Below, in pieces: positions 1,385-14,184 of a stretch of 64,000 nt of DNA. This DNA is from Rhizobium sp. NZLR1 (GTDB taxonomy: Bacteria > Pseudomonadota > Alphaproteobacteria > Rhizobiales > Rhizobiaceae). Both the position numbers and the translations under genes were made by a program. Below the pieces are notes generated by a model. That model saw nothing but the letters and a program-made list of their open reading frames with translations, made no database searches and had not been told where the DNA came from. The stretch lies in NCBI RefSeq assembly GCF_017357385.1, contig NZ_CP071632.1, positions 997,501 to 1,061,500 on the forward strand. The letters run 5' to 3'. Every line of letters starts with the position of its first letter. Position 1 is the stretch's first letter.

Positions 1385-1428
1385 GGAACTGTGGGGCGGA
1401 TTTGCGCCTGGTTGGGACCCAAGATTTG

Positions 1429-1598
1429 CCCCTCACTCTAACCAAACCGGGGTCGAGCCGCTGGTCTCGACCCGTCCTTCGGACTCCCTCAAAAACGGGA
1501 AGAGGGGATGTGCCCAGCGAGAGGTTAGTGGGACGGAGAGGTCGTTGCATACCCCTTCTCCCCGCAGGCGGGGAGAAGTTGCCGGCAGGCGGTTGAGC
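1429..1598. repeat. RIME-like intergenic mosaic element
   Basis: The stretch contains inverted arms typical of Rhizobium intergenic mosaic elements: a CCCCTC start, an AAAAACGGGAAGAGGGGA block, a GGGACGGAGAGG block and the pair TTCTCCCC/GGGGAGAA followed by GCCGGCAGGCGG. The same blocks recur at 19.8, 20.4, 32.3 and 49.7 kb in this window. Its right end abuts an IS630 fragment. Confidence 0.75.
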
Positions 1599-1758
1599 GC
1601 CGCCGCGCCGACATTGCCCGGCGCAGAGCATGCTGGAAGGCCCGGCAAGGTCGCGTCGATCCCAAACGGCTGGTCTTCATCGATGAAACTTGGATCCGTA
1701 CCAACATGGCGCCGTTGCGCGGTTGGGGGCCGAAAGGCAAAAGGCTGCGCGGCTTTTC
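1595..1758 (+). mobile_element. IS630-family transposase remnant
   Basis: An open stretch without a start encodes about 55 residues that match the catalytic core of IS630-type transposases: basic residues, then a VFIDETWIRTNMAP segment containing the first catalytic Asp of the DDE triad, then RGWGPKGKRLRG. The frame loses similarity after about 1758, and neither the N-terminal helix-turn-helix nor the final catalytic residues are present. It is a decayed fragment, useful as a marker that mobile DNA once inserted beside the downstream repeat-protein locus. No terminal inverted repeats or TA duplication could be identified. Confidence 0.75.
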
Positions 1759-2184
1759 AATTGACCCATTTTGCTACTTTAACGAGCGCCAAACTCTTTC
1801 TGAAATCCGCGAAGAAAGCCAGTCGACTATATGGAGGTCGCCGGAGTAGGCTGATATCGCGATGTGGTTAGTTCCTCACCAAAATCAAATGACTATCGAT
1901 TTCAGCTGGTTGCTGCTCCCATGTTTCAATAATAAATTGTCAGAGCATTGAAGAAGTGTGACGTTGACGGCTGACCTATAGTTCGCTGACGCGATTGTAT
2001 TATCTGGTAACCACTTTTGTCGGTAATACTTCCCTAAAATCAGTGAAAGTGTAGCCTCGCGCTACCTCGAGTTCGAGGGATACAGCATCTAAAGTTCTCG
2101 TTGATATAGGCCCGGACGCGACCCGTCTGGTCACGCGACCGCATATCCCATGGGCATGCAGACATGCACTTCGAGGTGTTGCCA
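1759..2184. other. Gene-poor, AT-richer leader region before the repeat-protein gene
   Basis: No convincing gene is visible. The stretch is clearly more AT-rich than the flanks between about 1860 and 2110, consistent with foreign DNA and with promoter sequence. It must hold the promoter of the downstream operon, but I could not pick a convincing -35/-10 pair. GAGGTG at 2172-2177 is a reasonable ribosome binding site for the ATG at 2185. Confidence 0.5.
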
Positions 2185-4029
2185 ATGCCGACAGGTCGAT
2201 TTCAAAACCCAAATATCGTCGGCGCTTCGCTGCGTGACCAGATACAATTAGAGATTGATGCCGAGCGTGCCCTTACGGCCGCCAGCCACGATCAGACCCA
2301 TAGCAGCGACGGGACCGGTACCTGTCACCACTACGCGACACCGAAAGCCTTCCCTAGCGCCGAGGAACTTCGCTTCGCGCTGCGAAACGTTCGGGAACTC
2401 GTCGCGCCACAATCCACGCAAAGGAGAAATTCGATGACAACGACGACAGTGCGTTGGAGCGTTGAACGCGACGCCGATATCCTTGAATCCGCGACTACTT
2501 ACAACGACGGCGAAGTTTCTGTGGAGACGATCCTATCCGGTTTACGCGATGCGCTGAGTGGCGGCTCGGGGCAGGGCGGAAGTGTAGCAACTCAGGCGAC
2601 GAGCGCGCGTGCCACCCCACGACAAGCTGCTATCCGTGCTTCGGCTTCCGGTATGGCGAGCTTCAGTCAACCTGCCGCGAGCGCGAGCGGTGACGATATG
2701 CATCACCAAACCCACTCCGAAGGCGCCGACGTCCAGTCAGGACTTGCCAGCCGGCTAACGCGGGGTCTTGAGGATTCGATGCACGGCCAGACGCATAGCA
2801 GCGGCGGCGGTGGAGGCGGAAGCCTCGGCGACTTGGCTCGTGGTGGACAGATCGCAGCGGGCCCCCAGGCGGCTGGGCGATTGGCCGGACAAGGGCTCGC
2901 CTCTATTGCAGAGGACGTAATGCATGATCAGACGCATTCCGAGGGCGGAGGACATATGCAGGAGCTCTCCCGCCAGCGTGTCCAGACAATTGCGTCCGGT
3001 CTCGATGATGCGATGCACGATCAAACCCATTCGGAAGGCGGTGGCAGCGCGGTCGAAGCCCAAAGGGGTATTGCCAGCCGGCTAACGCGGGGTCTTGAGG
3101 ATTCGATGCACGGCCAGACGCATAGCAGTGGCGGTGGTGGAGGCGGAAGCCTCGGCGGCTTGGCTCGTGGTGGACAGATCGCAGCGGGCCCCCAGGCGGC
3201 TGGGCGATTGGCCGGACAAGGGCTCGCCTCTATTGCAGAGGACGTAATGCATGATCAGACGCATTCCGAGGGCGGAGGACATATGCAGGAGCTCTCCCGC
3301 CAGCGTGTCCAGACAATCGCGTCCGGTCTCGATGATGCGATGCACGATCAAACCCATTCGGAAGGCGGTGGCAGCGCGGTCGAAGCCCAAAGGGGTATTG
3401 CCAGCCGGCTAACGCGGGGTCTTGAGGATTCGATGCACGGCCAGACGCATAGCAGCGGCGGCGGTGGAGGCGGAAGCCTCGGCGGCTTGGCTCGTGGTGG
3501 ACAGATCGCAGCGGGGCCCCAGGCGGCTGGGCGATTGGCCGGACAAGGGCTCGCCTCTATTGCAGAGGACGTAATGCATGACCAGACGCATTCCGAGGGC
3601 GGAGGGCATATGCAGGAGCTCTCCCGCCAGCGTGTCCAGACAATTGCGTCCGGTCTCGATGATGCGATGCACGATCAAACCCATTCGGAAGGCGGTGGCA
3701 GCGCGGTCGAAGCCCAAAGGGGTATTGCCAGCCGGCTAACGCGGGGTCTTGAGGATTCGATGCACGGCCAGACGCATAGCAGTGGCGGTGGTGGAGGCGG
3801 AAGCCTCGGCGGCTTGGCTCGTGGTGGACAGATCGCAACGGGGCCCCAGGCGGCCAGCGGACGCGCACGCGGAGACGCTTTTGGCCGTGCCTTTCGAGAG
3901 GGGTCCCATTTGCAAAACCATAGCGAAGGCGGGGCTCATGCCGAGATGACGCGCAGCCGTGGGATACAAGAGCCGGTTTCGGAAGGACTGGGTCAAGCGG
4001 TCCAAGCGGAGTTGTCGCGCAGCAAATGA
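2185..4029 (+). CDS. Multi-core repeat protein, putative radical-SAM-modified precursor
   Basis: I do not recognise this 614-residue protein as a named family. It carries 13 copies of a short His motif, H-x-Q-T-H-S followed by acidic or Gly residues, starting at residues 35, 173, 200, 247, 278, 309, 356, 387, 418, 465, 496, 527 and, in the variant HLQNHS, 575. From residue 188 it is built of 109-residue units with three motifs each, spaced 47, 31 and 31 residues. Most motifs follow a small helix-like segment ending in an acidic residue and Met (for example GLEDSMH). Aromatic residues other than His are nearly absent around the motifs, so His is the likely modified side chain. It is followed by a radical SAM/SPASM enzyme, an HExxH hydroxylase-like protein and a protease, the expected order for a RiPP-like precursor. 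No signal peptide. ATG 2185 has GAGGTG upstream; an internal ATG at 2434 has a better site. Confidence 0.8.
   Translation: MPTGRFQNPNIVGASLRDQIQLEIDAERALTAASHDQTHSSDGTGTCHHYATPKAFPSAEELRFALRNVRELVAPQSTQRRNSMTTTTVRWSVERDADILESATTYNDGEVSVETILSGLRDALSGGSGQGGSVATQATSARATPRQAAIRASASGMASFSQPAASASGDDMHHQTHSEGADVQSGLASRLTRGLEDSMHGQTHSSGGGGGGSLGDLARGGQIAAGPQAAGRLAGQGLASIAEDVMHDQTHSEGGGHMQELSRQRVQTIASGLDDAMHDQTHSEGGGSAVEAQRGIASRLTRGLEDSMHGQTHSSGGGGGGSLGGLARGGQIAAGPQAAGRLAGQGLASIAEDVMHDQTHSEGGGHMQELSRQRVQTIASGLDDAMHDQTHSEGGGSAVEAQRGIASRLTRGLEDSMHGQTHSSGGGGGGSLGGLARGGQIAAGPQAAGRLAGQGLASIAEDVMHDQTHSEGGGHMQELSRQRVQTIASGLDDAMHDQTHSEGGGSAVEAQRGIASRLTRGLEDSMHGQTHSSGGGGGGSLGGLARGGQIATGPQAASGRARGDAFGRAFREGSHLQNHSEGGAHAEMTRSRGIQEPVSEGLGQAVQAELSRSK
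2421..2436 (+). promoter_or_regulatory. Strong internal ribosome binding site and ATG
   Basis: AAGGAG at 2421-2426 lies seven bases before the ATG at 2434, in frame with the long repeat protein. It is the best Shine-Dalgarno match in the locus, so a shorter 531-residue form, lacking the first HDQTHS copy, may be the main or a second product. Confidence 0.6.
2746..3855 (+). repeat. Tandem 327-bp coding repeat, about 3.4 copies
   Basis: Units start at 2746, 3073, 3400 and 3727, each exactly 327 bp (109 codons). The fourth is broken off near 3855. They are nearly identical at the DNA level, including silent positions, so the expansion is recent or homogenised by recombination. Silent differences in the Gly-coding tract alternate: copies 1 and 3 match each other, and copies 2 and 4 match each other. 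Confidence 0.95.
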
Positions 4030-4087
4030 GACTCGGATGGGCGACCACGGTTCGTGCGCCGCCTCCATCGCTTCAAACGGAGCCGCC

Positions 4088-5311
4088 ATGAACGCGCTGA
4101 CGCCAAGTTTCGATCCTCAGATTATACAGCCGCTGACGCTTATCATCACCAAGCTTACCGCGCGCTGCAATTTGGATTGTCCCTATTGCTACGAGTTCAA
4201 TCTCAAAGATACGACATGGAAGGACAGCCCCAAAAAAATGTCTGACGACGTTTTCGACGCACTGCTACTGCGCGTCGGCAACCACGCGCGTCTTGCTGGG
4301 CAGCAACGCGTCCACTTTTCTTTTCACGGCGGCGAACCGACGATGGTCGGCATCAAACGCTTCGAAGAGCTGGCGGATAAAGCCCGGCGCGCACTCGATG
4401 ACCTGGATGTGCGCATCAGCATCCAGACCAATGGAGCCTTGCTCAATGGCGATTGGGCACGCACGCTCAGGCGCCTCAACGTCAACGTCGGCGTTAGCCT
4501 CGATGGCCCGAAGCACGTGCACGACCGGATGCGTATTGATCATCGGGGGCGCGGCTCCTACGAAAGTGTGCGACGCGGCATCGAGGCGCTGCAGGATGCA
4601 GATGTTCGCTTCGGCATCCTTACGGTAATCACACTAGGTGCTGATCCGCTGGAGATCCACCATCATCTGCTTGAACTCGGCTGCACCAGCCTGTCCTATC
4701 TTCTTCCCGACCTTACCCACGATACGATCGGCACCGTCCGCGAACAGTTCGGACCGACCCCTTGCGCGGATTTCCTTATTCCAATTTTCGACGACTGGTG
4801 GTTCAACTCGACCTTGGATGTCCGGATCCGTAATTTCTGGGATATCGCCCGCGCCATTATGGGCGGTCCAAGTCATGTCGACGCGCTGGGCAACCGACCG
4901 TTGCGCTACCTCGTCGTATCGTGTGGCGGCGACATTGAAGGTTTGGACGTCCTCAAGGCTTGTGAGGACGGAATGGTGAAGACGGGCATGAATGTCCTCT
5001 CCGACGAGTTCAGCGCACTGCCACAAAAGAGTCCCTTGCACGCAGAAATGGTGTTCGGGCGCATGCCGCTGTCGAAACAGTGCCAGAGTTGCGTCGAGCG
5101 CGACACTTGCGGAGGGGGGTACCATCCGCACCGCTATTCCCGCGCCAACGGATTCGACAACCCAAGCGTGTGGTGCGCCGATCTGATGCGGCTTTTCACC
5201 CATATCCGCGCGCGAATGGAGATCGATCACTCTGAGACAAATCGGCGCCGCTCGAGATTGATGGGCACTGCCCCTATCGCTGCACCGGTGGAAGATGAGG
5301 CTCCGGCATGA
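4088..5311 (+). CDS. FxsB-like radical SAM/SPASM peptide maturase
   Basis: This 407-residue protein has the radical SAM CX3CX2C cluster at Cys27, Cys31 and Cys34 (ARCNLDCPYCY), the GGEP-type SAM-binding loop (FSFHGGEPTM), and a C-terminal SPASM domain with candidate cluster ligands Cys279, 292, 332, 335, 341 and 363. The segment CGGGY..HRY...GFDNPS.WCADL is typical of FxsB-like peptide maturases. Such enzymes install carbon-carbon or ether crosslinks (cyclophanes) in ribosomal peptides in the cytoplasm. The ATG at 4088 is chosen because GGAG lies just upstream and the protein then starts shortly before the core fold. It begins 58 bases after the repeat protein and overlaps the next gene by four bases, so the three are likely one operon. 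The inferred substrate is the His-motif repeat protein; the chemistry on His is a guess. Confidence 0.9.
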   Translation: MNALTPSFDPQIIQPLTLIITKLTARCNLDCPYCYEFNLKDTTWKDSPKKMSDDVFDALLLRVGNHARLAGQQRVHFSFHGGEPTMVGIKRFEELADKARRALDDLDVRISIQTNGALLNGDWARTLRRLNVNVGVSLDGPKHVHDRMRIDHRGRGSYESVRRGIEALQDADVRFGILTVITLGADPLEIHHHLLELGCTSLSYLLPDLTHDTIGTVREQFGPTPCADFLIPIFDDWWFNSTLDVRIRNFWDIARAIMGGPSHVDALGNRPLRYLVVSCGGDIEGLDVLKACEDGMVKTGMNVLSDEFSALPQKSPLHAEMVFGRMPLSKQCQSCVERDTCGGGYHPHRYSRANGFDNPSVWCADLMRLFTHIRARMEIDHSETNRRRSRLMGTAPIAAPVEDEAPA

Positions 5312-6390
5312 ACCACCACGTCCGGCCGAAGCAGGCGGAAGGAACGCTCGATATTGTCGGTTTCCTTCAATTGGAGCCAAGCTCCGTTACCCAGGCACGC
5401 ATATTAAGCTTTCGCCATTTCTGTCTGCGCGAGGCGCAGCTGAAATTGGCCTGCCGGCGCTGCGGTATTGCCGTCTGGCTCGACCGCTTGCCGGCGGCAT
5501 CGATATCTAGGATAGCCGAGGCGCCGGTATTCAGTGAACTCCTGTCCAGCGGCGATACGGCATCGGACGCGGCGCGCGAACTGCTACTCGGCTGGATAGA
5601 TGCGGAATCGTGCTTGGTCGGAGAACGACCGTCAGGCCATTTCGAGTGGACGGCGCTCGGAGACTATCGCTTCGCTCAGTCGGGCAGGCTCGCGTATGTC
5701 GCACCGCGGATGCATGGGCTGGTACTAGACAGCGGTAGTCCATGCGTTCTGGCCCCGCCTCTTCTGCCGCCGGAGAAACGCGTTAGAACGAGACCTCTCA
5801 CGGATTTTGGGCCTGCTCGCGCAAAGCTTGGCGAAGCGCTTGCACTCATTGATCTTGCTGCTCCGATCGGGGTGGAAATGGTCCTTGGCACGTTGCGTGT
5901 AATTCATCTCTATGCGGAGGATCGCCCAGGCTTTTCGAGCGGTTCGCCGCGGCGTTACCCCGGCATCACTTCGCTTGGCAACGCGCATAGCCCTTCCACA
6001 TCCCCGCATCAGGTGGCCGACGCGCTTCTCCATGAAGCGACACACAGCGTCCTATATCTTGCAGAAGTCGACACGCCCTTTTTCCGAACAGCAGAAATCG
6101 AAACGCCGCGGGTGATCTCGCCTTGGACCGGCGCCAATTTGGCCATGCATAGTTTCGCCCACGCATGCTGCGTCTGGTACGAATTGGCCAATTTCTGGGC
6201 GCGAATGCTGGAGACCGGCGATCGCCATCCAGAAACTCTGCACTTGTTGCGGCGTTCAGCCTCGGGGTTCCTCAAGCAAGAATACGAGGACGCGCTGATG
6301 CTCATCGCCGGCGGGATCACGCCGTTCTGTCGCGAGCTGCTGGAGGGCCTTGCCGTCGATGTGAGGTCACAATGGGGAGGGACAGCATGA
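5308..6390 (+). CDS. HExxH protein, putative alpha-ketoglutarate-dependent peptide beta-hydroxylase
   Basis: The 360-residue protein has an HEATH metal-binding motif at residues 242-246 and, about 35 residues later, SPWTG...HSFAH (His281, His285) before an aromatic ELANFW helix. This is the layout of the HExxH domain found fused to or beside FxsB-type radical SAM enzymes, some members of which are alpha-ketoglutarate-dependent peptide beta-hydroxylases rather than proteases. Its start overlaps the radical SAM stop by four bases (ATGA), implying translational coupling. The first roughly 230 residues are the less conserved N-terminal part seen in this family. There is no signal peptide, so it should act in the cytoplasm on the same substrate. 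A protease role cannot be excluded from the motif alone. Confidence 0.78.
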   Translation: MNHHVRPKQAEGTLDIVGFLQLEPSSVTQARILSFRHFCLREAQLKLACRRCGIAVWLDRLPAASISRIAEAPVFSELLSSGDTASDAARELLLGWIDAESCLVGERPSGHFEWTALGDYRFAQSGRLAYVAPRMHGLVLDSGSPCVLAPPLLPPEKRVRTRPLTDFGPARAKLGEALALIDLAAPIGVEMVLGTLRVIHLYAEDRPGFSSGSPRRYPGITSLGNAHSPSTSPHQVADALLHEATHSVLYLAEVDTPFFRTAEIETPRVISPWTGANLAMHSFAHACCVWYELANFWARMLETGDRHPETLHLLRRSASGFLKQEYEDALMLIAGGITPFCRELLEGLAVDVRSQWGGTA

Positions 6391-6610
6391 TATCTTCAGC
6401 CGGCCCCAGCGGACGTATCGGCGCGAGCGGCGTTACCTCCACCTCCAGCCCCATAAAGGTCGTTGGCAGCGGGGTGTTTGTCCCGCTTTCGACAGTGACC
6501 GCCAGCCGAGCGGTGCCGCTGTCGTTGGCGACCAGTCCGACAGATATGATGCCCGGCAGGGGCAACCATTGACGCGATGCAAGCTGTTTTACGCGTTCCG
6601 CGGGGACCAT
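6317..6610 (-). CDS. Small protein resembling the N-terminal domain of trypsin-like peptidases
   Basis: This 97-residue frame runs opposite to the operon and overlaps the HExxH gene's 3' end. Its middle (PGIISVGL, a short acidic/Gly turn, LAVTVESG, PLP, GLEVEV, PIRPLG) resembles the beta-strand prodomain that precedes trypsin-like domains of bacterial peptidases, including the one encoded 34 bases away on the other strand. It may be a truncated, inverted relative of that domain, or a spurious frame. Third codon positions coincide with those of the opposite plus-strand frame, so GC3 cannot decide between them. The last 30 residues look non-conserved. Only one of this and the 6387-6572 frame is likely real. 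Confidence 0.35.
   Translation of the reverse strand: MVPAERVKQLASRQWLPLPGIISVGLVANDSGTARLAVTVESGTNTPLPTTFMGLEVEVTPLAPIRPLGPAEDIMLSLPIVTSHRRQGPPAARDRTA
6387..6572 (+). CDS. Candidate 61-residue protein coupled to the HExxH gene
   Basis: An ATG at 6387 overlaps the HExxH stop codon in the arrangement ATGA, the same coupling seen between the two preceding genes. The product is Ser/Thr/Val/Pro-rich with no Cys and no recognisable domain. Its position would suit an extra precursor peptide or accessory protein. However, the opposite strand (6317-6610) reads as a more protein-like sequence, and this frame may be its mirror image. Treat the two as alternatives. Confidence 0.25.
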   Translation: MISSAGPSGRIGASGVTSTSSPIKVVGSGVFVPLSTVTASRAVPLSLATSPTDMMPGRGNH

Positions 6611-6643
6611 GCCTTTTTCAACTCCATCGCAAAGGTCTAAGAT

Positions 6644-7633
6644 ATGCCCGGTCGAAACGATCTATCACATCTCGCCGAGGCGAAGACAGCTGTTTCGCAA
6701 CGGTTTCTTTCGCCCGAGGCCGGCGTTGTCAGAGCGTTAGCAGTTCGGCGCGTCGTGTCGCCCACTCCAAATGTCAACCTCCAAGGCGTGGGTATCGGCT
6801 TCAAAATCGTGTCGGGTCGGACAACCTCTGAACCTGCCCTGAAATTTTATGTCCGGCGAAAACGGCCCAAGTCTGAGATCGGTACCGACGATCTTCTGCC
6901 CGAGCAGGTTGACGGGATTGCAACCGACGTGGAAGAAATTGGGTTCCTGCAGCCGCTGGCAAACCCCCGTGCGCATCGGCCAGCACAGCCCGGCTGCTCG
7001 ATGGGCTTTGCGGATCCCGATCCACTCAATTTGCTCGCCGGCACTTTCGGTGCGCTGGTGGAAGACAGTCAGGGGCGCTACGTGCTGTCCAACAATCACG
7101 TCCTTGCGGACCAAAATCGGCAGGCTTTCGGAACGGCCATATTTGAGCCTAGCCCATTCGATGGGGGCGATACGGAGAAGGATAAGATCGCCGAGCTGGA
7201 GGGTTATGTCCCGCTCGACGTATCTCAAGCAAACTACGTGGATGGCGCTATCGCCCGACTGCTTCAGCCGAACCTCGCAGTCGCTGATATTTTGGGAATT
7301 GGGCCCCCTGCCGGCGCCAAGTCGGCAGCTCTTAATACGATCGTAGAAAAGTTTGGGCGCACGTCCGGCTACACAAGGGGTTATATCGAAAGTATCAGCA
7401 CTGACCTTAAGGTGCCGTATGACATCGGTACGATCTTGTTCCACGATCAGATCGCTATCAGGTCGATCGACGCCCTTCCGTTTAGTGAGCAGGGAGATTC
7501 CGGTGCGCTCGTCCTTGAGCAGACGACGGGCATAGCCATTGGATTGCTGTTCGCGGGAAGTCCAACTGTTTCCTTTGCCAATCACATCTCTGATGTCCTC
7601 GATTCGTTCGGGGTCAACCTCGTGACGTCCTGA
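6644..7633 (+). CDS. Trypsin-like serine protease of the repeat-protein locus
   Basis: The 329-residue protein has a chymotrypsin-fold triad in order: His152 in LSNNHVLAD, Asp200 in YVDGAIARL, and Ser286 in EQGDSGAL. The N-terminal 110 residues form the strand-rich region (GVGIGFKI, LKFYVRRK, LPEQVDGI.TDV) usual for bacterial relatives of this peptidase type. There is no signal peptide or membrane segment, so it is predicted to be cytoplasmic. The start at 6644 has AAGGT about nine bases upstream. It follows the radical SAM and HExxH genes on the same strand and is the natural candidate for cutting the multi-core repeat protein into modified units, between motifs or after the linkers. That role is inferred from context only. 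Confidence 0.85.
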   Translation: MPGRNDLSHLAEAKTAVSQRFLSPEAGVVRALAVRRVVSPTPNVNLQGVGIGFKIVSGRTTSEPALKFYVRRKRPKSEIGTDDLLPEQVDGIATDVEEIGFLQPLANPRAHRPAQPGCSMGFADPDPLNLLAGTFGALVEDSQGRYVLSNNHVLADQNRQAFGTAIFEPSPFDGGDTEKDKIAELEGYVPLDVSQANYVDGAIARLLQPNLAVADILGIGPPAGAKSAALNTIVEKFGRTSGYTRGYIESISTDLKVPYDIGTILFHDQIAIRSIDALPFSEQGDSGALVLEQTTGIAIGLLFAGSPTVSFANHISDVLDSFGVNLVTS

Positions 7634-7952
7634 GCAAACGATCTTGGGACAGGATTTTTGAACCACCTGTTTTTAATTCAGCTCTCACTGAGAAACTGTG
7701 TACCCTGGCGGGCCGACGCAAGGTGGCCGGCGTGGGCCTCAAGCTCTTGAGATCGATATCGATGAAGACATCCAAATTGTCGGACGAAATGTCGTCGGTC
7801 GAAAACGTCAATCCCGTGAGAAGTGCTCCCTAGCTAAGTCTGAATGCCGCGCGATCTCATTGCCGTGGTTAACATTGGGGTAACGACCTCGCGATAAATG
7901 TAGCGAGCGCCGCCCTCCGCGGCTTTGTTTTTGCGTTTTCTGGAGTGCGGAC
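7634..7952. other. Right border gap of the accessory island
   Basis: About 320 bases lie between the protease and mipA-like genes. Apart from the weak hairpin I see no gene. The last roughly 80 bases must include the promoter of the next gene; CTGGAG at 7941-7946 is its ribosome binding site. No IS end or attachment-site duplicate could be recognised that would define the island's right edge. Confidence 0.5.
7649..7676 (+). terminator. Weak hairpin plus U-tract after the protease gene
   Basis: ACAGG at 7649-7653 pairs with CCTGT at 7666-7670, followed by TTTTAATT. The stem is short with a 12-base loop, so this is only a possible end of the operon. Confidence 0.35.
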
Positions 7953-8765
7953 GTGTCTCATCGGTCAGTCGTATCGATCTCTTTGGCTATTGGCCTTTTT
8001 TCCTTTGGTTCGGCGGCGGCGCAGGAAAGCGGCCAGCATTTCTGGTCCGGCGACTGGTATCTGAGCGTCGGTGTCGCAGGCTTCTCCGCCCCGAAATTCG
8101 AGGGCTCGTCGCATAATGAATTCAAGTTCAGCCCGCTGATCTCGGTCGGCCGCCAAGGCGCCGGCCCGCGTTTTTCCTCGCGCAACGACAATCCGTCCTT
8201 CGCCCTCATCGACAAGGGCGCCTTCCGCGCTGGTATCGTCGGCAGGTTCGTGCCGTCGCGCGATGACGGCGACGGCCATGAGCTGAAGGGCTTGAAGAAG
8301 GTCAAGTGGGGTGCCGAAGCCGGTGGTTTCGTCGAAGTCTATCCGACCGATTTCTTGCGCGCCCGTGCCGAAGTCCGTCAGGGCATCCGCTCATACGACG
8401 GCGTCGTCGCCGATCTCGCGGTCGATGCCTTCACCGATATCGCGCCCGACCTGCAGCTGTCAGGCGGCCCGCGCGCGACATTTGCGACAAGCGGCTATTA
8501 CGACGCCTATTACGGCGTCAGCGCCAAGCACGCCGCCGCAAGCGGCCTTGATCCCTACAAGCCATCGTCGGGCATCCAGTCCTATGGCGCGGGTGCCGCC
8601 CTGACCTGGAAGGCGACCGAAAACCTCTCGGCAAGCTCCTTCCTCGAATATAAGCGGCTGGCAGGTCCCGCCGCCGACAGCAGCCTGGTGCGAGACCGCG
8701 GTTCGAAGAACCAGGTCCTGATCGGCGTCTCGGCGACCTACAAGTTCAATTTCTCCCTGCAGTGA
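7953..8765 (+). CDS. MipA/OmpV family outer membrane protein
   Basis: A GTG start with GGAG seven bases upstream opens a 270-residue protein with a signal peptide (about residues 1-23, ending GSAAA). The mature part has alternating strand patterns, starting with WYLSVGVAG.SAPKFEG, and ends in an aromatic-poor beta strand (YKFNFSLQ), as in MipA/OmpV beta-barrel proteins. Family members are outer membrane scaffolds or pores; MipA itself was named for binding a murein transglycosylase, but the function in rhizobia is not established. A palindromic repeat begins eight bases after its stop. Confidence 0.85.
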   Translation: MSHRSVVSISLAIGLFSFGSAAAQESGQHFWSGDWYLSVGVAGFSAPKFEGSSHNEFKFSPLISVGRQGAGPRFSSRNDNPSFALIDKGAFRAGIVGRFVPSRDDGDGHELKGLKKVKWGAEAGGFVEVYPTDFLRARAEVRQGIRSYDGVVADLAVDAFTDIAPDLQLSGGPRATFATSGYYDAYYGVSAKHAAASGLDPYKPSSGIQSYGAGAALTWKATENLSASSFLEYKRLAGPAADSSLVRDRGSKNQVLIGVSATYKFNFSLQ

Positions 8766-8882
8766 TCCAATGCATGTCGCCCGGAAGTGTGTAGCGGTTC
8801 CGGGATAACGACATCCATTAAACATCCAACGCATGTCGCCCGGAAGTGTGCAGCGGTTCCGGGATAACGACATGCATGAGAC
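8765..8882 (+). repeat. Tandem pair of the 40-bp palindromic repeat
   Basis: Two copies of an approximately 59-bp unit lie head to tail. Each contains ATGTCGCCCGGAA, a short loop region and TTCCGGGATAACGACAT; cores at 8774-8814 and 8833-8873. CCCGGAA pairs with TTCCGGG to form a stem. The copies differ at three or so positions. Further copies are at 19012 and, inverted, at 40113. The second copy supplies upstream in-frame ATGs for ubiA that are probably not used. Confidence 0.9.
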
Positions 8883-10775: not shown

Positions 10776-10848
10776 TAAGCTTTCCGTGGCAAAATATGCT
10801 TACCAGCAGTTCGTTCTTTTAGAGAGTTTGCCGAAAAGGGCGCTTTTA

Positions 10849-13800
10849 ATGATCACGGCTTCCCTCGCTTACACGATCCTGTCGAAGGATATGACGTCGA
10901 GCCTCAACAAGGTTGCGTCGCAGGCGACGGTCAAAAAGGACGCTCAGTACTACGCCGACCATATCAACAAGGTCACATCGGTCGACGACTTTCTCGGTGA
11001 TTACAAGCTCTACAGCTATGCGATGAAGGCCTATGGTCTGGAGGATATGACCTACGCTAAGGCCTTCATGAAGAAGGTGCTCGAAAGCGATCTCACCGAC
11101 GCCAACAGCTACGCCAACAAGCTTTCTGATACGCGTTATCGCGAATTTGCCTCCGCCTTCAATTTCAATGCGCCTGCCAAGGATGTGCAGACGGACGCGC
11201 AGGAGGACGATCTCATCGGCCTCTACAAGCAGTCCTTCGTCGATGCCGACAAGGCGGCGAGCACCGAGAGCACCTATTACAGCAACAATATCGATAGCGT
11301 GCAGACCGTCGACGATCTGGTCAACAACACCCGGCTGCGCACCTATGTACTGACGACTTTCAAAATCGATCCCACCTATGCGTCGAAGGATTTTCTGCGC
11401 CAGGTGCTGACGAGCGATCTCAGCGACCCCACGAGCGTCGTCAACACGCAAGGTGGCGACAAGTACAAGGCGCTTGCCGCCCAGTTCAGCTTCAACGCCG
11501 ACGGTACAGTCACCGGCACGGCGCAGACGGCGGCGCAGAAGGCGTCGGTCGTCGAGACCTACACGCTGAATTCCCAATCGGTGATCATCGACAATTCGGT
11601 CGGCTCCGACGTCTACTATGTCGGCAAGACGGCGGCTGACTACAACAAGGCCTATTATACCGCCAAGATCGGCACGATCACCAATGTCGACGATCTGGTC
11701 GCCGACAAACGCCTGACCTCCTACATCACGACGGCCTACAGCATGGGCGCCGACTTTACCGCGGCAGCGTTGCGCACGGTGCTGACCGACCCCGGTTATG
11801 CCCAGCTGATGGGCTTTACCAATGTCTACAACGCCTTCAACTTCAAGGCGGACGGGTCGACCTTGAGCACGGCGCGCGTCCAGACGGTTGATCAGGCGAA
11901 CAAGCTGTCATCGGCAGCGTCGAGCACCGCCAACTATTATAATGTGACCTCGCAATCGAGCGGCATCACCAATGTCGACGACCTGCTCGCCGACAATGTG
12001 CTGGCGCGTTCCATCAAGGATGCCTATGGGCTTGGCACCAATTTCAGCAATGCCGACCTGAAGAATATCCTGACGGATTCGGCCTATGCCGCGGCCCAGG
12101 GCCATGCCGGTCTCAATGCCGACTTCAATTTCCAGGCGGATGGTTCGATCAATGGTTCGGTGATCCAGACCGCGGCGCAGCGGAAATCGACGACCGACAA
12201 GTTGGCGGCGAACGCAGCGCATTTCAACAGCATGATCGGCAATGTCACCAATGTCGATGACATCATGTCCGATACTGTCGCAGTCAGCTATCTCAGAAAC
12301 AGCATGCAGATCGCCGACAGCGTCTCCGATGCGACGTTGAGGACGTTCCTCGTCGACCCTGCGGCTGCCAGCACCCAGGGTTACAGCGACGTTAACGACC
12401 TCTTCAATTTCAAGGCCGACGGTTCGGTCGCGACGCTTTACGCCTCGCAGAGCGCAACCCAAAGCGCCAGCACTGCCAGCAAGGCCAATGATGCGGCCGT
12501 CTATTACCAGGCGACCATCGCCGGCATCTCAAACGTCGATCAGTTGCTGTCGGATCAGAAGCTGAACAATTTCGTGCGCAACGCCTTCGGCATCCCCTCC
12601 ACCGTCACCGACGTCGCTCTTCGCAATATTCTGACCGATCAGAGCGGCACCGGCACCTATGCCGATGTTGCCGCCGCCTTCAACTTCAAGGCGGATGGCA
12701 CGCTCGAGGACGGCATGCAGGCGCAGACGGCGGCACAGATTACCAACACGAAAATTGCCGCCGGAGCCCGCACCGACGATTATTCCGCCCGGATGGCGAC
12801 AATCGGTAATGTCGACGATCTCATCGCCGATGACGCCATCACCAATTTCCTGAAGAGCACCTACAATCTGCCATCGGCTACCTCGAACGCTGATCTGAAG
12901 AGCATTTTGACCGATGCGACTGCGGCAGCCGCAGCCGGCCACGCCGATCTCAATGCCGACTTCAACTTCGCCGCCGACGGATCGCTCCCGGTCGTCAGCT
13001 CGGTCCAGACGGCCGATCAGGCGCAAACCACCAATGACAATTATATGGCTCGCTATGACGACGAGCGCGACGAGGCGATCGACGAAGTCACCTCCAATTA
13101 CACGAGCATGATGGCCGATAGCACCAGCCTGCTCGATTTCTCCGAGATCAAGAGCGTCAACGATTTCCTGCGCAGCAATTCCTCGGCCGATTTCAAGAAA
13201 AGCAACGACAAGCTGCCGGATCCCTACCATGTGGCGCTGCAGGCTTTCGGTCTGACCGACCAGGAGGTGCCGCGCTCGATGATGCGCAAGATCCTGACGA
13301 GCGATGCATACGACCCGAAAGGCTATATCGCCTCGCTGAAGGACGAACGCATCACCAACCTTGCCCGCGCCTTCAACTTCGGCCCCGACGGCAAGGCGGC
13401 GTCACCCTTCCAGGCGCTTCCCGATGCGACGTTGGCCAAATACGCCACCGATTATAAGGCGCATGTCACCATGCTGTTGAAGGCCGGCCCGTTAAAGGAC
13501 AAGGCATCGAAGGACGCGACGACCGAGGTGGATTACTTCGCCAAGGGCATGGCGAAGGTGAAGTCGCTCGACGATTTCCTCGACGACAGCCGCCTGACGA
13601 ATCTGGTGCTGAAAGCCAACAACCTCGACCCGAAGGATTACGACAAGGCGACACTGAAGAAGATCTTCACCTCCGATCCCGACGACAAGAAGAGTTATCT
13701 GAACACCAAGGCCGATGCGCGCTTCAAGGATATCGTCGCCGCTTTCAACTTCGACAAGGACGGCAATCTCACCCGCGCCAAGGTAGGCACTATCCAGAAC

Positions 13801-14184
13801 AAGGCTGCCGAAGACCACACCCAGAAGCTTTTCGTCCAGCAGACGATGGAAGCCCAGCAGGGCGAAAGCAATGACGGCGTCCGCCTGGCGCTCTATTTCA
13901 GCCGCAAGGCCCCGAACATCACCTCGATCTATTCGATCCTCGGCGACAAGGCGCTCTATCAGGTGATCACCACCGCCTACAGCTTGCCTTCGCAGATCTC
14001 GGGCATGGATGTCGCCAAGCAGGCCGACCTCATCAACCGCTTCGTCAAGCTCGAGGATCTCCAGGATCCGAAGAAGGTCGACAAGCTGCTGCGGCGCTTC
14101 ACCGCCATGTACGACGTCAAGAACAGCACGCAGCAGTCGCCGGCGCTGCAGATCCTGACCGGCGGCGGCACGCAGCAATCCTGA
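10849..14184 (+). CDS. Giant DUF1217 repeat protein
   Basis: The product is about 1,111 residues. It is made of roughly ten divergent repeats of 95-130 residues, each reading YY...I..V.(N/S)VDDL, a variable helix pair, L..(I/V)LTD, and ending (A/S)FNF.ADG. This is the DUF1217 unit, known in rhizobia both near flagellar genes and in stand-alone proteins. I start at the ATG at 10849 because family members begin just before the (L/A)Y....KDM segment; a GTG at 10786 would add 21 residues. There is no signal peptide or membrane segment. The last two units diverge, and the tail is Gln/Ser/Gly-rich, which can suit type I secretion or surface assembly, though that is speculative. No flagellar genes are in the window. 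Confidence 0.85.
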   Translation: MITASLAYTILSKDMTSSLNKVASQATVKKDAQYYADHINKVTSVDDFLGDYKLYSYAMKAYGLEDMTYAKAFMKKVLESDLTDANSYANKLSDTRYREFASAFNFNAPAKDVQTDAQEDDLIGLYKQSFVDADKAASTESTYYSNNIDSVQTVDDLVNNTRLRTYVLTTFKIDPTYASKDFLRQVLTSDLSDPTSVVNTQGGDKYKALAAQFSFNADGTVTGTAQTAAQKASVVETYTLNSQSVIIDNSVGSDVYYVGKTAADYNKAYYTAKIGTITNVDDLVADKRLTSYITTAYSMGADFTAAALRTVLTDPGYAQLMGFTNVYNAFNFKADGSTLSTARVQTVDQANKLSSAASSTANYYNVTSQSSGITNVDDLLADNVLARSIKDAYGLGTNFSNADLKNILTDSAYAAAQGHAGLNADFNFQADGSINGSVIQTAAQRKSTTDKLAANAAHFNSMIGNVTNVDDIMSDTVAVSYLRNSMQIADSVSDATLRTFLVDPAAASTQGYSDVNDLFNFKADGSVATLYASQSATQSASTASKANDAAVYYQATIAGISNVDQLLSDQKLNNFVRNAFGIPSTVTDVALRNILTDQSGTGTYADVAAAFNFKADGTLEDGMQAQTAAQITNTKIAAGARTDDYSARMATIGNVDDLIADDAITNFLKSTYNLPSATSNADLKSILTDATAAAAAGHADLNADFNFAADGSLPVVSSVQTADQAQTTNDNYMARYDDERDEAIDEVTSNYTSMMADSTSLLDFSEIKSVNDFLRSNSSADFKKSNDKLPDPYHVALQAFGLTDQEVPRSMMRKILTSDAYDPKGYIASLKDERITNLARAFNFGPDGKAASPFQALPDATLAKYATDYKAHVTMLLKAGPLKDKASKDATTEVDYFAKGMAKVKSLDDFLDDSRLTNLVLKANNLDPKDYDKATLKKIFTSDPDDKKSYLNTKADARFKDIVAAFNFDKDGNLTRAKVGTIQNKAAEDHTQKLFVQQTMEAQQGESNDGVRLALYFSRKAPNITSIYSILGDKALYQVITTAYSLPSQISGMDVAKQADLINRFVKLEDLQDPKKVDKLLRRFTAMYDVKNSTQQSPALQILTGGGTQQS

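Follow-up and report, generated by a model that had tools for sequence, protein, structure and literature searches.

Does a repeat protein of 621 residues serve as the substrate of a peptide-modifying pathway in Rhizobium sp. NZLR1? The question is raised by four adjacent genes in the window analyzed here, a 64,000-nucleotide stretch that covers positions 997501-1061500 of the 6.86-Mb genome. An original prediction, made from the letters of this stretch, described a pathway resembling those of ribosomally synthesized and post-translationally modified peptides (RiPPs), in which a repeat protein with 13 HxQ(T/N)HS motifs is followed by genes for a radical S-adenosylmethionine (rSAM) enzyme, an HExxH protein and a trypsin-like protease, all on the forward strand. 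Open reading frames (ORFs) and motif count confirm this layout, as well as the overlap of two genes by four bases, the rSAM stop and the HExxH start sharing an ATGA at 5308-5311; the start of the repeat gene moves, position 2185 being the second in-frame ATG of an ORF that begins at 2164. The rSAM ORF opens at 3959 and has its probable start at ATG 4088, leaving a 58-bp gap, without overlap, behind the repeat gene. Family scores and co-occurrence support the RiPP-like pathway with its multi-motif substrate, cyclophane-type rSAM enzyme and HExxH oxygenase, and on balance we favor a four-gene pathway, acquired by horizontal transfer, whose product is a multi-core RiPP of the triceptide-like (three-residue cyclophane) kind.

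The four genes are inherited as one unit

The four genes have been passed on together: their order, including the 4-bp overlap, recurs on plasmid p4 of Rhizobium ruizarguesonis and plasmid p_2 of Rhizobium lusitanum. Among 148 Rhizobium genomes, six contain an rSAM match at E <= 1e-40, yet an identity of at least 75% is reached only in the window genome (G000) and one other (G241), and the precursor profile matches these same two. The precursor (query P0004) was found in 2 of 72,556 plasmid records, both of which hold an rSAM protein of >60% identity, whereas 155 records contain an rSAM match of any kind. The original prediction had staked itself in advance on the co-occurrence of the repeat protein with the rSAM gene, and the two indeed travel together. 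The cassette family is sparse: the precursor appears only in G000 among 397 genomes sampled from the order, and among 385 genomes of the class the rSAM protein matches at E <= 1e-50 in five and closely only in G000. In the protein database, four of seven precursor/HExxH pairs (P0001/P0008, P0002/P0009, P0003/P0010 and P0006/P0011) lie on equally long contigs, which suggests a common neighborhood; P0004, P0005 and P0007 have no HExxH partner on an equally long contig among the matches listed.

Selection on the genes is evident from dN/dS values against R. ruizarguesonis of 0.13 (precursor), 0.06 (rSAM), 0.16 (HExxH) and 0.14 (protease); dS against R. lusitanum was not computable. The DNA in common with R. 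ruizarguesonis ends 13 bp past the protease stop. MipA was searched in 21 genomes, giving nine matches outside the window genome, of which the five at 91-95% identity were compared. In all five, both flanks align, with nothing of the four genes between them. The left-flank match ends at 1385-1610 and the right-flank match begins at 7834-7863; four relatives have 5-204 bp between the flanks and the fifth has 1457 bp, of which a 43-bp piece corresponds to window positions 1446-1488.

The repeat protein carries a constrained aromatic motif

The pattern H.Q[TN]HS matches the repeat protein exactly 13 times. In 2000 residue shuffles the mean was 0.0005 and the maximum 1, and a chance origin of the motifs was rejected on this test. 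Of its 34 histidines, 27 lie within motifs, and the protein further contains 7 Phe, 2 Tyr, 1 Trp and 1 Cys. Much of the gene is a tandem repeat whose 327-bp units agree at 98%. An internal ATG at 2434 is preceded by a Shine-Dalgarno-like sequence here and in both plasmid genomes (R. ruizarguesonis, L024:7310; R. lusitanum, L025:7754), although this stretch codes for partly different amino acids among the three, and the R. lusitanum annotation places the precursor start at this ATG. Two precursor forms, of 621 and 531 residues, the shorter with 12 motifs, may thus both be made.

The protein searches scored the best 8000 candidates (7999 for HExxH) by common words, so that more relatives may exist. 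They returned at least seven precursors including that of the window, to which P0019 and P0020 were added on their protein sequences alone. Across the family the repeat proteins span 283-632 residues and the motif number ranges from 6 to 13. Motif composition was tabulated for seven representatives (the window protein, P0003, P0004, P0005, P0007, P0019 and P0020), leaving out P0002, P0006 and two plasmid proteins as near-copies of the window protein or P0004. The pattern x.QxH[SG], which itself fixes positions 3, 5 and 6, has 56 occurrences. At position 1, 49 of these have H and 7 have F, and no other residue is seen, with the proviso that motifs inside one protein are not independent; position 2 is D in 45, G in 8 and H, L or S once each; position 4 is T in 45, S in 6, A in 3 and N in 2; and position 7 is E in 28, S in 26 and A in 2. 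The window protein has His at position 1 in 13 of 13 motifs, whereas P0019 has Phe in six of six, so that the earlier description of His as the only aromatic residue at the motif does not extend to this relative. Judged from the sequences, this exchange fits an aromatic ring partner and would be hard to reconcile with metal binding at that position. P0019 had no match among the plasmid records.

P0020, a metagenomic protein of 372 residues, ends in one unit, VLRDAIEAALGQRSAESHDQTHSSDSYG, which resembles the first unit of the precursor; its score was reached by 0 of 1000 shuffles in four of four comparisons, and Pfam, NCBIfam, PDB-sequence and plasmid searches with P0020 gave no match. Ending as it does in a single helix-HDQTHSSD unit, P0020 may be a case of the same tag unit on an unrelated protein.

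Enzyme families of the cassette

The rSAM protein has the cysteines of a radical SAM/SPASM enzyme (CxxxCxxC Cys27/31/34 and SPASM Cys332/335/341/363), conserved in eight of eight aligned rows, and these, with the aromatic-x-x motif in the adjacent precursor, place it in the broad three-residue cyclophane class. It matches the sequence of the ChlB structure 9gm3 at 191 bits (E 3.2e-55). The earlier label of an FxsB-like enzyme holds as far as the cyclophane type is concerned; membership of FxsB itself does not, the score against TIGR04269 being 294.9 bits with a curated cut-off of 370. The YhhB model NF041707 likewise gave 308.1 bits, under its curated cut-off of 445. In the tree, the window rSAM clusters with those of R. 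ruizarguesonis, R. lusitanum, Blastococcus and Solirubrobacteraceae (93/100) and not with the four YhhB rows that are annotated as such, and it falls outside the sampled FxsB/HaaB and YhhB groups. An HxsABCD system was rejected on the score against the HxsB model (67.3 bits, cut-off 370). Among PADLOC models, pVip matched the rSAM domain at 54 bits (E 4e-15), AbiEii matched the precursor at E 0.0032, and the HExxH protein and the protease had no match; an antiphage role was set aside because the rSAM protein scores much higher with cyclophane families than with pVip.

The HExxH protein belongs to the α-ketoglutarate (aKG)-HExxH type (TIGR04267, 57.8 bits, cut-off 40) and shares the ChlH/SjiH fold. 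Its motif, His242/Glu243/His246, is present in 11 of 11 aligned homologues, and His285, a candidate third metal ligand, in 9 of 11; the protein is a putative Fe/aKG-dependent peptide beta-hydroxylase. Presence of an HExxH protein does not by itself mark the cassette: in 199 genomes of the bacterial family, TIGR04267 matches occur in nine, seven above cut-off, and the HxQ(T/N)HS motif was not found in eight short stretches around TIGR04267 matches from other genomes.

For the protease, the Pfam matches behind the trypsin-like assignment of the window copy are sub-threshold (Trypsin_2, E 0.021; NAL1_N, 22.6 bits with a cut-off of 27). The R. lusitanum copy exceeds that NAL1_N cut-off with 28.8 bits, and the presumed triad His152, Asp200 and Ser286 is invariant in six of six aligned proteases. 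Identity to the window copy is 90% in R. ruizarguesonis and 62% in R. lusitanum. A C-terminal protease piece in two frames, at 81-87% identity, lies on plasmid pA of Sinorhizobium chiapasense (L080 8001-8364); the other three cassette genes had no match in the 16-kb stretch of that plasmid, and the piece looks like a cassette relic.

A proposed pathway and its place among known systems

From these features we infer the chemical steps and the cleavage, with the motif as a core that is modified and then released. The substrate would be the 531- or 621-residue repeat protein, whose motifs are very probably modified by the rSAM/SPASM enzyme. This enzyme would link Gln3, through its beta carbon, to the aromatic side chain of position 1 (His, or Phe in a single relative), a ring that we regard as probable. 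By pattern, aligning HDQTHSS/E with YDRTHNR would bring His1-Gln3 and His5-Ser/Glu7 onto ring positions, and a second ring, closed between His5 and Ser/Glu7, is possible, if rather doubtful. The stand-alone aKG-HExxH enzyme, to which the motif offers Asp2, Gln3 and His5, would then beta-hydroxylate a motif residue, likeliest Asp2 or His/Gln; that the motif is hydroxylated seems somewhat likelier than that it is not. Finally, the NAL1-like protease, co-inherited with the three preceding genes, may cut the glycine-rich linkers to give many short ringed peptides, although we hold release of the cores by this protease only tentatively. It is less likely still that the whole 531-632-residue protein becomes a poly-cyclophane with two rings per motif, up to 26 rings plus hydroxylations, made by a distinct rSAM clade from a mobile cassette.

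Much of this logic is precedented. HaaB, ScaB and YhhB act on His, and YhhB links Tyr C3 and His C2 to an Arg C-beta (excerpts of PMC11002830); ChlBH hydroxylates Asp and His only once a ring is in place, and Gln is the residue hydroxylated by PflC/PosC (excerpts of PMC12636437); a four-part cluster of precursor, rSAM, aKG/Fe oxidase and peptidase is described in excerpts of PMC9062424. His rings, HExxH hydroxylation and the four-part cluster are therefore already described, and neither His as the ring aromatic nor the transporter-free layout sets the locus apart, as the original prediction had supposed. ChlA and YhhA cores also carry His at ring positions: the annotated YhhA cores are SYDRMHHRHNRS and AYDRTHNRHNRGQ, an unannotated ORF before an rSAM gene contains FDRTHHRHNR, and SYDAMHHRHNRS is the end of the ChlA chain in 9gmc, an R3A mutant. 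No transporter family was matched by the four proteins or by three scanned neighbors (histidine phosphatase, MipA and a DUF1217 protein); at four of four YhhA loci, likewise, the 3 kb around the rSAM gene contain no annotated transporter, in gene tables that are incomplete and hold hypothetical proteins.

The nearest systems, YhhA/YhhB(/YhhC) and ChlA/ChlBH, share with the window an rSAM enzyme of the same superfamily branch, a ChlH-fold HExxH oxygenase and a core spacing, Y/F-D-x-x-H-x-x, that resembles HDQTHSx. They differ in that the compared YhhA precursors have 47-84 residues and a single C-terminal core, whereas the window precursor is protein-scale and multi-motif; in the presumed ring partner, Arg in YhhA/ChlA but Gln and Glu/Ser here; in YhhB, outside whose group and below whose cut-off the window enzyme falls, and which in Rhizobium etli is an rSAM-HExxH fusion instead of two separate genes; and in the co-inherited protease. 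The stand-alone aKG-HExxH enzyme SjiH has 14% identity to the window protein. HxsA, another rSAM substrate, contains His-Xaa-Ser repeats. TvgA, with its TVGG repeats, is similar in being a repeat-containing rSAM substrate (excerpts of PMC9062424); both systems use rSAM families other than that of the window, and there is no second rSAM among the four window genes. HaaA/HaaB and ScaB (His-Ala-Ala) also form a ring on His C2 (excerpts of PMC11002830), yet HaaB lies elsewhere in the tree, the partner is Ala and the compared HaaA has 63 residues. The motif of the 'Cluster 41' H(Y)NR biosynthetic gene cluster, compared by its description in excerpts of Kostenko et al. 2022 (PMC9062424), differs from that of the window.

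What appears new is the rSAM clade, the His/Phe-x-Gln motif and the 283-632-residue precursors; substrate length and motif number remain unusual, as originally noted. The protein-scale precursor, the motif and the clade were not found in the literature searched, whose coverage excludes key triceptide papers, nor were the strings HDQTHS, DQTHSS and DQTHSE, which triceptide, ChlB and ChlBH papers outside that coverage may describe. If the pathway operates as proposed, cyclophane RiPPs would extend from peptides of ~50 residues to protein-scale multi-motif substrates, and the cassette, small enough to be expressed in Escherichia coli, would be a ready test of processive rSAM action along a single chain. 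It would also offer a new rSAM clade and a new ring motif, in which His or Phe pairs with Gln, along with an HExxH partner that stands alone and a candidate protease inherited with the other genes.

Counter-evidence and alternative explanations

Several observations weigh against the multi-core pathway. The four genes include no exporter, no protease cleavage site can be named, and NAL1-like proteases are also found without the pathway's rSAM annotated nearby. The rSAM enzyme scores under both the FxsB and YhhB cut-offs, and its clade is not starred in the tree. The motif was absent from the fetched stretches of 14 rSAM loci from genome contigs, including two relatives at 50-54% identity, and the genome of the Solirubrobacteraceae relative has no HExxH match. 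P0019, which contributes six of the seven Phe residues behind the Phe/His argument, is known from its protein sequence alone. Aligning whole YhhA peptides with precursor ends gave weak matches: for five targets, the score was reached in 37, 722, 654, 52 and 799 of 1000 shuffles, at best a marginal gain over shuffling for two of them (37 and 52) and none for the others. For the Blastococcus candidate precursor, the corresponding counts were 156, 58, 581, 171 and 224 of 1000, leaving its homology unsupported; a homologous leader linking Blastococcus or YhhA precursors to the window is not supported by the shuffles either. A Blastococcus protease as homologue of the window protease (E 0.033) is also unsupported.

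Among other explanations, the product could be the entire modified protein, its ringed or hydroxylated His motifs serving metal binding, coating or adhesion and the protease only turnover or maturation. The 12-13 His-rich motifs linked by glycine-rich stretches, the lack of a transporter family among the four genes and a length far beyond the YhhA, XyeA and HaaA precursors compared (47-84 residues) would suit such a product. But the protease lies inside the block shared with R. ruizarguesonis and is present at both plasmid loci, a motif number varying from 6 to 13 is easier explained by core dosage, and Phe at position 1 in P0019 is odd for metal binding; we therefore consider a whole-protein product unlikely. 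We give about the same small chance to an rSAM enzyme that forms another bond (His5-Ser6-Glu/Ser7 only, ether or C-N) or acts elsewhere on the repeat protein. The bond favored above is itself inferred, the enzyme forms its own clade, and the related rSAMs DarE and DynE make C-O or C-N links (excerpts of PMC9055067 and PMC11002830); the restriction of position 1 to H or F and the closest families, which are three-residue cyclophane synthases, speak for the ring to Gln3 instead. That a repetitive protein of other function is the coincidental neighbor of an unrelated rSAM/HExxH/protease operon is largely refuted and highly improbable: although the 58-bp gap and the motif-free rSAM relatives would allow it, the repeat gene and the rSAM gene occur in the same two genomes and the same two plasmid records in the same order, and the equally long contigs point the same way.

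Setting of the block and minor observations

The coordinates of the block and its borders are collected in Table 1.

Table 1. Features of the four-gene block and its edges (window positions)
Feature	Position	Strand	Evidence
Repeat precursor protein, 621 residues, 13 HxQ(T/N)HS motifs	2164..4029	+	ORF, motif count, homologues P0002-P0007, P0019, P0020
First motif HDQTHS, within family-conserved unit [HF]DQxHxSDxxGT...H...P	2287..2304	+	Motif scan, alignment
Possible shorter precursor from internal ATG behind AAAGGAGA	2434..4029	+	Shine-Dalgarno-like sequence, shared by R. ruizarguesonis and R. lusitanum
Tandem repeat of a 327-bp unit that holds three motifs, 3.4 copies	2744..3854	+	Repeat and motif scans
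Radical SAM/SPASM enzyme, putative three-residue cyclophane synthase	4088..5311	+	ChlB match, tree, cysteines
aKG-HExxH-type oxygenase, putative peptide beta-hydroxylase	5308..6390	+	TIGR04267 score, fold
NAL1-like trypsin-fold serine protease, presumed triad His152/Asp200/Ser286	6644..7633	+	Pfam, alignment
Block common with R. ruizarguesonis p4, 87.8% DNA identity: ~400 bp upstream and four genes	1757..7646	+	
Stretch missing at the matching site in five relatives; borders vary	1407..7862		
Transposase-like fragment at the left edge	1529..1846	+	DDE_3, 16.6 bits (below cut-off 28.6)

Between the two cassette ends, compared in 85-bp windows, no exact matches of >=7 bp were found; searches of the edges one at a time gave a single direct pair of 14 bp, and inverted repeats were absent. 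A tblastn search of 50,697 phage records with two precursors gave no match, and the rSAM pattern is absent from viral contigs. Among PHROGs, a 'protease' family is matched by the protease (202 bits) and another family by the rSAM protein (120 bits), by which a phage link of single genes is possible. No RNA families or tRNAs were reported within the window. On R. ruizarguesonis p4, the cassette (L024 7040-12550) sits between traC and TraC-family/traA genes, in a Ti-type conjugation region.

Two ORFs beside other rSAM genes are possible precursors. A short ORF before the Blastococcus rSAM gene (L003 7726-7947) ends HLKGSTHLKSS, a candidate His-x-Lys ring peptide. In an alphaproteobacterium, an ORF upstream of an rSAM gene (L072 616-924, reverse complement of the fetched stretch) repeats the unit GGNFVSAPAMSGAAVADDRLRT and is a possible multi-core Phe-x-Ser precursor. 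Elsewhere in the window, seven stretches of a 1132-residue protein (10786-14184) match DUF1217, and a 59-bp direct repeat of 1.9 copies (8765-8877) separates the MipA gene from the ORF that follows.

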